Shown here in pieces: positions 1 through 12,020 of a stretch of 19,281 bases of DNA. The notes beneath the pieces are model-generated. The model made no database searches. It was given only the letters and a program-made list of their open reading frames with translations, and had not been told where the DNA came from. This stretch comes from Alphaproteobacteria bacterium (GTDB taxonomy: Bacteria > Pseudomonadota > Alphaproteobacteria > RF32 > CAG-239). Numbering within the stretch: the stretch's first letter is position 1; each line of letters begins with the position of its first letter. Both the position numbers and the translations under genes were made by a program. The stretch is from the NCBI GenBank assembly GCA_017964705.1, contig JAGCRL010000038.1, positions 1 to 19,281 on the forward strand. The letters are read 5' to 3'.

Positions 1-342
1 ACAATTAATAATTGTCAAACTGATGGTCTTTTAGTGCATCATAAAGATGAAAATAAAAATAATAATACTGTTGATAATTTGGAATTGATGACGATAATTG
101 ACCACAATCAGCATCATCACGGTGGCAAAAATCCGTGGAATAAAGGAGTTAAAATGTCACCGGAAGTGTTTATTAAAATGAGTAAAACAAAAGCTGATAA
201 TTTAAGACCACGCAATATTGAAATCATCAATCTTGCAAAAGTTGGTAAAAAGACAAAGGAATTGGCAGAACAATTTGGCATCTGCACACGGCAAATTCAA
301 CAAATATTAAAGGAGGAAAACAAATGGATGACATCAAATTAA
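1..342 (+). CDS. HNH homing endonuclease, C-terminal part (5' end outside window)
   Basis: The reading frame is open from base 1 to the TAA at 340-342, so the gene begins upstream of the window and only the last 113 codons are seen. The visible part starts in an HNH nuclease fold: a paired His (LLVHHKDENKNNN), then the typical N-x-V-x-N-L-E-L turn, then DHNQHHHGG. After a basic linker there is a helix-turn-helix near the C-terminus (TKELAEQFGICTRQIQQIL), which would supply extra DNA contact. HNH proteins of this design are phage homing endonucleases, often intron-encoded. Here the ORF lies outside the intron: its last 19 nt overlap the start of the next gene, and the intron begins 38 nt after its stop codon. 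It may cut intron-minus alleles of the neighbouring gene; that is inference. Confidence 0.85.
   Translation, partial: TINNCQTDGLLVHHKDENKNNNTVDNLELMTIIDHNQHHHGGKNPWNKGVKMSPEVFIKMSKTKADNLRPRNIEIINLAKVGKKTKELAEQFGICTRQIQQILKEENKWMTSN
309..316 (+). promoter_or_regulatory. Strong ribosome binding site setting the start of the NrdD-like gene
   Basis: AAAGGAGG lies 7 nt before the ATG at 324-326, inside the HNH reading frame. It is a near-perfect anti-16S match and is the reason for placing exon 1 of the split gene here, although the unspliced frame is open for only 22 codons. Confidence 0.8.
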
Positions 343-741
343 ATGACAATGAACGTACTAAGTGCGAGGTGTGGACTCGTAAACGCCCATAAATGCGTGT
401 CCATAAAAACAGCCGTCTAAACGGGGGAACACCCATGAGGTCAATCCCGTGCTAATATAATGCCTAACGACTATCTCGAAAGGGAGTAGGTTCAAGCGAG
501 CCGAAATGGCGGCAACAGCAAAAGCTGTTAAGATATAGTCTAATCTGTATGGCAACATATAGCAGTTCTGCGGAACGGATAACGAGTAGCGACCGTTATT
601 GAATAAATGGTTATGGGGTACCATCGCCCTCTCGAAAGCTTTAATAAAGGCAAAAAAGAGGAGTTTTACGAACGTGTTTGCTTTAAAGAGGAAAAAGCGG
701 TCGAACATTTATTACTTGACAACGCCATCGCGGCGGAGTAA
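324..741 (+). CDS. Small NrdD-like glycyl-radical protein, split by a group I intron (exons 324-380 and 610-741)
   Basis: Exon 1 (324-380, 19 codons) and exon 2 (610-741, 43 codons plus TAA) join to give a 62-residue protein. Across the junction it reads CEVWTR|VMGYHRP followed by SFNKGKKEEFYERV. This matches the C-terminal glycyl-radical segment of anaerobic (class III) ribonucleoside-triphosphate reductase, where R-V-x-G-Y carries the radical Gly (here Gly22, codon 616-618) and an F-N-x-G-K-x-E-E stretch follows. A full NrdD has about 600-700 residues, so this is only the radical-loop portion. It could be a stand-alone domain that partners a separate large subunit, as GrcA/YfiD does for pyruvate formate-lyase; that is inference. 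The intron falls between codons 19 and 20 (phase 0). Unspliced RNA would stop at 390-392. A terminator follows at 770. Confidence 0.75.
381..609 (+). ncRNA. Group I self-splicing intron, td-like (IA2-type) core, 229 nt, no ORF
   Basis: P1 pairs the exon end GGACTCGT (373-380) with GCGTGTCC (395-402), leaving the expected U.G wobble at the 5' splice site and one internal mismatch. P10 pairs CCCATAA (386-392) with exon-2 bases TTATGGG (611-617). P7 is GACTAT (469-474) with ATAGTC (535-540). P8 is AACAGC (514-519) with GCTGTT (524-529). P9 is CTGTATG (545-551) with CATATAG (556-562), closed by a GCAA tetraloop. The P3-P6 region (TAAACGGGGGAAC..., TCAATCCCGTGCTAA) and the AACGACTATC stretch resemble the phage T4 td intron as remembered. 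The final intron base is G609. Both splice sites are fixed independently by P1 and P10, and they restore the protein frame. Confidence 0.93.
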
Positions 742-10862: not shown

Positions 10863-12020
10863 TTATCCTTTAATAACACCCATTGGTGATAACTTGAATA
10901 AGATTTTAACCAAATCCTTTTGCTCATCCATTACGACATCAATGTCCTTGTATGCAGACGGTGCCTCATCTAAGTCATTTACATTACGAATTGAATGAAC
11001 AATGCCTAAATCATCCATACGCTTTGCTTCGCCCTCGACTGTCAACTCTTGCTTTGCCTTCATACGAGACATCTTACGGCCTGCACCATGGGAACAAGAT
11101 TGTAACGAGGCTTCGTTGCCTAAACCCTCAACAATATAAGAGCAAGTACCTTGAGAACCCGGAATAATACCGATAATTCCCTCACGAGCTAAAGTAGCTC
11201 CCTTGCGATGAACCCACACATCTCGACCAAAATGATGCTCAAGAGCGGCGTAATTATGATGAATGTTTATCGTGTTCAAATTATTGAAATTAGGAAACAC
11301 ATCTGCAAAAGAATCCATTATTCGTTGTGCCATGAGCATACGATTTTCATAAGCAAACTGCAAACAAATCTTCATTTCATCTATATAAGCACGAGCTTCA
11401 TTAGTACCTATCGGTAAAATAGCAAGGTCGTTGTTCACGATTTCATTTTGCTTCCAAAATTTGCACAATTCCTTTGCTTTACGATTATAAAAATCAGCAA
11501 CCTTCTTTCCTAAGTTACGAGAACCAGAATGTATCATAAACCAGATATTGTTATCCTCGTCACGTTGAATCTCAATGAAATGATTTCCACCACCTAAAGT
11601 ACCTATTTGATAACGTGCAGATTGAAACTCATGCAAACATATATTTGTAGTATTCCAACTCTCATCGGCAAAAACAGGGCTTAATTGTTGAGTCGTATGA
11701 TGGTTAAACCCAACCGGAACTTGCTCACGAATTTTACCCATAACTTGCTTTAACAAATCTACAGTAACTTGCTCAGTAGTTAAATTAGTCTTAACCGCAA
11801 GCATACCACACCCAATATCAACACCAACCATATTCGGACAAATAGCATTATCAAGTGCTGCAACACCACCAATCGGCATACCGTAACCCTCATGAGTGTC
11901 CGGCATTAAACACACGTTGCCGACTAACCATGGATGGTTTGCAATATTCTTCGCTTGTTGAACAACACCTGCCTCTGGGTTACCGCACCAACATAATATA
12001 TTATTTGCTAACTTTTGCAT
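10863..12020 (-). CDS. rtcB: RNA 2',3'-cyclic phosphate/5'-OH ligase RtcB
   Basis: This complete 385-residue RtcB (bacterial enzymes are about 400) keeps every active-site motif: MPDTHEGYG, VGVDIGCGM (D68, C71 metal ligands), GGGNHFIE (N146, H147), HSGSRNLG (H164), the H254-H255 pair and SCSHGAGRKMSR with H311, the residue that takes GMP in the first step. The C-terminal APSAYKDIDVV and final K-G are also present. RtcB joins 3'-phosphate or 2',3'-cyclic phosphate ends to 5'-OH ends, using GTP and Mn2+. In a phage the likely use is repair of tRNAs cut by host anticodon nucleases; that is inference. GAGGTGAG precedes the ATG. The transcript leader holds a long hairpin (12050-12100). Confidence 0.97.
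   Translation of the reverse strand: MQKLANNILCWCGNPEAGVVQQAKNIANHPWLVGNVCLMPDTHEGYGMPIGGVAALDNAICPNMVGVDIGCGMLAVKTNLTTEQVTVDLLKQVMGKIREQVPVGFNHHTTQQLSPVFADESWNTTNICLHEFQSARYQIGTLGGGNHFIEIQRDEDNNIWFMIHSGSRNLGKKVADFYNRKAKELCKFWKQNEIVNNDLAILPIGTNEARAYIDEMKICLQFAYENRMLMAQRIMDSFADVFPNFNNLNTINIHHNYAALEHHFGRDVWVHRKGATLAREGIIGIIPGSQGTCSYIVEGLGNEASLQSCSHGAGRKMSRMKAKQELTVEGEAKRMDDLGIVHSIRNVNDLDEAPSAYKDIDVVMDEQKDLVKILFKLSPMGVIKG

Follow-up and report, generated by a model that had tools for sequence, protein, structure and literature searches.

A gene that with very high probability encodes a stand-alone glycyl-radical domain of class III (anaerobic) ribonucleotide reductase (RNR) is interrupted at its radical-loop codons by a group I intron, and we are nearly certain that this intron and its splice sites are genuine. 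The gene lies in a 19,281-nucleotide stretch of DNA, referred to here as the window. In the bacterial family of the host, the class III reductase is natively split into a body and a small radical gene. We consider it likely that the intron in the radical-subunit gene, docking of the spliced product on the host reductase and collaborative homing with a neighboring HNH gene together form the explanation of this locus. The features concerned, all on the + strand of the window, are as follows.

1..342, +: 3' end of a free-standing gene for an HNH endonuclease of the homing type; its N-terminus is lost at the contig edge, and 19 nt are shared with exon 1
309..316, +: likely ribosome-binding site of exon 1, AAAGGAGG, 7 nt before the ATG
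324..380, +: exon 1, 19 codons, the last being CGT (Arg); homologues are continuous
373-380 with 395-402, +: P1, 7 of 8 pairs, one U-U mismatch, U.G at the splice site
381..609, +: group I intron of 229 nt, ending in G and lacking an ORF; the frame of exon 1 stops at 390-392
386-392 with 611-617, +: P10, 7 of 7 pairs, 3' strand formed by the Val-Met-Gly codons
412-417 with 508-513, +: P3, enclosing P4 (421-426/445-450) and P5 (431-433/439-441)
469-473 with 536-540, +: P7
474-477/482-485, 489-493/498-502 and 514-519/524-529, +: P7.1, P7.2 and P8, inside P7
545-551/556-562, 565-568/573-576 and 579-584/594-599, +: P9, P9.1 and P9.2; P9 and P9.2 covary
610..741, +: exon 2, 43 codons and stop, starting Val-Met-Gly(radical)-Tyr

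Identification of the intron and its splice sites

An earlier note on this DNA had called the insertion a group I intron and proposed a covariance-model search with Infernal and the Rfam group I model. When this search was run, RF00028 matched window positions 369-562 (+) at 52.9 bits, above the curated cut-off of 50, with E values of 4e-11 for the whole window and 9.5e-13 for positions 300-760 alone; together with the covariation described below, this bore out the assignment. The U.G pair at the 5' splice site, the terminal G and a P10 with the 3' exon are all present. The Rfam match ends before the last peripheral helices of the intron, and the 3' end was placed at 609 because of P10, the reading frame and relatives that remain similar up to intron position 225 of 229. 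P10 also surfaced unprompted in a repeat listing (repeat I15). Joining positions 324-380 and 610-741 gives 62 codons and a stop with no frame error, while the unspliced frame runs into TAA at 390-392, three codons past the splice site; a ribosome-binding site precedes exon 1 only. The 5' site that the earlier note had set by P1, its 3' site set by P10 and its uninterrupted 62-amino-acid product therefore all held.

Helices P3, P4, P5, P7, P7.1, P7.2, P8, P9, P9.1 and P9.2 form by standard pairs throughout when G-U pairs are counted, and P6 is weak. Folding of the single sequence was only mildly unusual (z of -2.35; 3 of 200 shuffles folded equally well). The intron is the sole RF00028 match in the source genome bin of 283 contigs, and under stricter filters the model was found in 1 of 152 host-family genomes, which is the source genome itself. 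The same genome was the only one of 385 genomes of the class to contain the intron DNA, and an exact 33-nt intron probe had no match among the viral contigs. The intron is quite probably splicing-competent.

Covariation in the 3' half of the intron

A search with the P7-P7.1 motif gave at least 120 viral stretches, and the best intron relatives among the matches listed reached 76% identity between intron positions 86 and 225 of 229. From these stretches 17 were picked, 2 near-duplicates were dropped and L317 and L274 were left out, so that the alignment of the 3' half consisted of 13 relatives and the window, 14 sequences in all. It excluded P9.1 and the sixth P8 pair, which the alignment did not place. 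For 32 pairs in six helices, 97.1% of 447 cells were paired against a shuffled mean of 83.4%, changes on both sides were seen in 16 of the 32 pairs (shuffled mean, 8.0), and 56 cells were double changes (shuffled mean, 13.1). None of 500 shuffles was as high as the observed value on any of the covariation measures, and helix partners that had been slid paired in 32 to 45% of cells.

The relatives were found with a motif that dictates P7 and most of P7.1, and these helices therefore say little here. The signal is carried by P7.2, P8, P9 and P9.2, among which P8 is the least clean (88.4% paired, with one pair unpaired in 7 of the 14 sequences). Core helices with covariation were thus found in the 3' half, and P3 to P5 form by standard pairs. 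Covariation of the 3' half confirms that the intron structure is beyond chance. Group I introns of subgroup IA are marked by P7.1 and P7.2 between P7 and P3; both are present in the window and P7.2 covaries. The intron is a compact, ORF-less intron of the phage IA kind and a further member of a well-known class.

The interrupted gene encodes a radical subunit

The spliced product matched only positions 531-562 of the 562 positions of Pfam NRDD, at 33.4 bits against a cut-off of 26.2, and thereby carries the R-V-x-G-Y loop of the radical domain. Against the full class III NrdD model (NCBIfam TIGR02487) it reached 29.8 bits, far below the cut-off of 326.35, over positions 549-579 of 581. NRDD was the only Pfam match at E values up to 10, which places the product outside GrcA/YfiD. 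Because the match is confined to NRDD 531-562 and the gene is homologous to a separate small gene of the host family, we read it as a stand-alone radical subunit split by the intron. The earlier description as an NrdD-like gene was right about the NrdD family and the radical codons, but the gene is a separate small subunit and not a full NrdD.

We also considered a disrupted full-length NrdD and rejected it, as an NRDD search of the genome itself hit two places, both on contig C176, and the 32 best relatives are complete proteins of 64 amino acids. The same search found nothing else on the contig of the window; it missed the intron-split gene, as expected. These 32, the best of 120 listed among 751 protein relatives, are 76 to 87% identical and uninterrupted. 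Columns R19 to P26, which span the junction, are invariant in 21 aligned sequences (20 relatives and the query). The earlier note had named a break between the exons at CGT/GTT in intronless relatives as evidence against its reading; continuity was found instead.

Within the R-VMGYHRP radical loop, the intron separates the codon for Arg from that for Val. The radical Gly, said in the earlier note to be the third codon after the junction, is indeed there, as it aligns with residue 621 of Thermotoga maritima NrdD, and Gly621 is the radical site of that enzyme (PMC4493059). The match to the T. maritima structure in the PDB is weak alone (E of 0.59); the match to Pfam NRDD has an E of 2.7e-8.

In 80 viral loci, kept of 166 found by exon 2 alone, there was no intron at this site; in 79 of the 80 the codon preceding the exon 2 side is for Arg, in L359 only through a frame break, and in L372 an additional codon is present at the insertion site. 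The first 35 radical-gene loci gave no RF00028 match at the curated cut-off. L036 and L359 were rejected as interrupted alleles, both being frame breaks, and no second intron-bearing allele was present in the loci compared. A search of 50,697 named phage records yielded nothing close to the radical gene: there were 9 weak matches, the best with an E of 0.004, and none covered 80%.

Class III reductase is split in the family of the host

The small radical gene was found in 51 of 90 related genomes searched, source genome included; by rank, it was present in 16 of 17 genomes of the same genus, 31 of 32 of the same family, the single one of the same order and 2 of 39 of the same class. In the source genome the chromosomal copy is intact and lies on C176, next to an NrdD that matches the profile up to position 534. 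At G000:C176:3872-5722 and in family loci L038 to L056, the class III reductase consists of the body, the small radical gene and nrdG. In all nine same-genus loci displayed, a CPKH...CPIC zinc motif is followed closely by the end of the body, and in four loci translated further the small gene has its own start after the body and is followed by nrdG. By script, body and small gene are separate in 19 of 19 family loci, with nrdG seen in 18. A route to the radical loop by read-through of the stop of the body was rejected as a general one: the two are in the same frame in G000 and L060 and in different frames in L062 and L067.

The arrangement extends beyond the family. Among 80 GTDB loci kept of at least 581, the body was present in 66 (65 split and 1 fused), NrdG in 66 and both in 63, and the body was absent in 14. 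These are script labels, in which L135 was counted as split with an abnormal body end and L093 was called fused. By record titles, the loci kept are mostly from Alpha-, Beta- and Gammaproteobacteria, with a few from Omnitrophica, Actinobacteria and Verrucomicrobia. In addition, the same three genes are annotated on the Cupriavidus necator H16 megaplasmid, with 676, 66 and 239 codons by their coordinates. The NrdG fragment of the host exceeds the cut-off for NrdG2 (TIGR02495). In the accessible portions of the open-access literature, including PMC9669993, PMC4390871, PMC9531940 and PMC3019208, no class III enzyme with a separate glycyl-radical subunit is described.

The assignment of the host rests on binning of the 19-kb contig, which is phage-like throughout the ORFs examined. 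The contig also carries a gene for an RtcB RNA ligase (window 10863-12020, -; E of 6.3e-114).

Phages carry the subunit without the enzyme

Forty viral records, chosen as longer contigs, were searched whole. All 40 of these records, which may be fragments, have the radical domain, and two (G198 and G224) have an NrdD body. None of the 40 reached the NrdG2 cut-off and four gave weaker matches, counts that refer to NrdG2-type activases only. Of 115 viral loci, in which some contigs are counted twice, 113 lack a body in the flank and none has NrdG. We rely on the 40 whole records because the 115 loci hold duplicates, for example, L002 and L149. One of the locus collections kept 80 of 203 loci. 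The label of viral locus L031 as fused was an artefact, its body lying downstream.

Several viral records showed other features. G209 (locus L023) has two radical domains, at 44711-44821 and 48252-48362, about 3.5 kb apart. G198 (locus L009) has an NrdD in two pieces (59258-63127 and 103133-103231), the second extending to the radical end of the profile, and a separate stand-alone radical domain elsewhere. Type II hammerhead ribozymes were found in radical-gene loci L015 (2339-2424) and L022 (1550-1625), and L015 also matches C4 antisense RNA and isrK.

An HNH gene beside the intron and a broken allele

The HNH ORF of the window matches HNH_3 just over the cut-off (E of 1.3e-5) and PHROG 59, HNH endonuclease (E of 1e-13). 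A free-standing endonuclease gene therefore stands beside an ORF-less intron, which is the arrangement expected of collaborative homing. The earlier note does not mention this gene. In the viral locus L359 (IMGVR_UViG_3300031867_001457), an HNH gene (905-1411) whose product is 59% identical over 106 amino acids lies directly upstream of the radical gene (1438-1626). This HNH protein is full-length. Its NUMOD4 and HNH_3 matches exceed the cut-off, and a helix-turn-helix match falls short of it. L025 has a distantly related HNH gene (30% identical) by its radical gene; HNH adjacency is rare among the loci compared, L359 and L025 being the two cases. A scan of viral contigs with the HNH protein confirmed no relative, though it was blind to the HNH of L359.

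The flanks of L359 match those of L160, which has no HNH gene at this place, with identities of 94.0% over 803 nt and 98.8% over 903 nt. Compared with the same contig (as L368), the radical gene of L359 is 91.7% identical on the exon 2 side and 66.0% identical on the exon 1 side. As a background, 13 pairs with exon 2 identities of 0.90 to 0.95, drawn from 156 distinct genes, have a mean exon 1 identity of 88% and a first percentile of 70.7%. The radical gene of L359 is thrown out of frame by four additional nucleotides where the intron would lie, and its relatives have intact copies. The gene is broken and is apparently recombinant at the intron site. Such a pattern would be left by cleavage at the position of the intron if recombination also ended there; the pattern comes from a single contig and would also fit other causes, including assembly error. 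We give about an even chance to the HNH protein of the window being aimed at the insertion site of the intron.

Proposed mechanism and alternative explanations

On the explanation that we favor, splicing would restore the 62-amino-acid radical subunit, and unspliced RNA would yield a peptide that takes in three intron codons before it stops. The spliced product would dock on the NrdD body of the host, which is encoded without a radical loop, and the host NrdG (NrdG2) would activate the subunit, so that dNTP synthesis would be kept running during infection. We find it reasonably likely, on sequence grounds, that the phage subunit works with the split reductase of the host. The HNH protein would most likely cleave copies that lack the intron, in or close to the codons of the insertion site, and the HNH gene and the intron would spread jointly, the intron shielding its carrier, as in collaborative homing.

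The joint spread of the two elements has to be weighed against an ordinary intron that arrived alone, by reverse splicing or recombination, with the HNH gene upstream by chance. The HNH gene lies outside the intron, there is one other close case of an HNH gene with a radical gene only, and HNH genes are common in phages (PMC2988022), but L359 has its 59% identical HNH in the same place and a radical gene that breaks and changes ancestry exactly at the codon boundary of the intron. We regard the solitary arrival as rather unlikely. A further alternative is an assembly chimera of phage and intron sequence, as the window is a single contig of a draft bin. P1 and P10, however, pair intron sequence to the exon on either side, precisely at the junction, and the frame is restored, which makes such a chimera extremely improbable.

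The role of the subunit itself can also be read differently. If the intron were decayed or the phage gene dispensable, no radical protein would come from the window copy; an intact small radical gene is present in the host itself, and P1 carries a mismatch. This reading is improbable, as the core helices, the terminal G, P10, the exon frames and a strong ribosome-binding site are all intact, and columns invariant in the 20 relatives (defined with the window sequence included) are kept in the window gene. Slightly less probable still is a phage protein that poisons or competes with the host reductase. A radical subunit without a body could form dead complexes, yet the radical loop is fully conserved, Gly included, phages usually need dNTPs, and in the T4 precedent Y06I restores pyruvate formate-lyase (PMC8683613).

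Comparison with known systems

Group I introns in phage RNR genes are known, for example, in T4 nrdD with I-TevII and in nrdD of Lactococcus phage 949 (PMC3653736; PMC2988022). Split and intron-bearing phage RNR genes have been described (PMC3653736), the curators of RNRdb report more than 100 group I introns in RNR genes (PMC2795772), and free-standing HNH genes occur beside RNR genes in T4 phages (PMC2988022). The window shares with these a self-splicing-type intron in a phage RNR gene. In contrast to T4 nrdD, its gene is a 62-codon radical subunit, and its intron contains no ORF and is next to the codon for the radical Gly. Reading of T4 nrdD meets a stop after 181 open codons, and the joined protein has 605 amino acids with the radical Gly at 580. 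Because the T4 intron is at codon 181 or earlier, it is not at the window site, and a common insertion was rejected by position. The earlier note had suggested an independent or related invasion; the shared protein family stands and a shared site does not, and the window intron looks like an independent insertion into the family to which T4 nrdD belongs.

The pairing of an ORF-less intron with a free-standing endonuclease suspected of having the same target resembles F-CphI and the psbA intron of cyanophage S-PM2 (PMC6083498; PMC3984707), whereas the putative homing endonuclease of the window is of the HNH/NUMOD4 type and concerns another gene. YfiD/GrcA and Y06I of T4 are likewise small stand-alone glycyl-radical domains, phage encoded in T4 (PMC8683613). 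In T4, vs.6 (NC_000866, 63557-63919; L230) is annotated as autonomous glycyl radical cofactor GrcA. Unlike these, the window subunit belongs to the NrdD family, and the host enzyme starts out in two parts, whereas theirs is repaired after cleavage by oxygen. The split class II enzyme NrdJa/NrdJb also has a C-terminal functional domain of RNR on a separate gene (PMC5704485; PMC4520616), but the system of the window is class III, and its separate piece holds the radical glycine instead of a cysteine-rich domain.

Implications for phages and their hosts

According to PMC8683613, pyruvate formate-lyase is the only enzyme for which stand-alone spare parts have been validated, with the possibility raised for other glycyl-radical enzymes. 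A class III reductase with its radical glycine on a polypeptide of its own, and phages that take only that piece, are undescribed in the RNR literature searched. The locus may be a new case of collaborative homing, with intron-plus-HNH, HNH-only and empty alleles for comparison. As a wider picture, to which we assign roughly equal chances of being right and wrong, many Pseudomonadota would have a two-gene class III RNR, phages would carry its radical subunit as an exchangeable cartridge, and the radical-loop codons would be a homing hot spot on which an HNH gene and an ORF-less intron have converged. The proteins, of about 60 to 90 residues, provide a natural system in which radical-subunit exchange, repair after oxygen damage and phage control of the host dNTP supply are testable.
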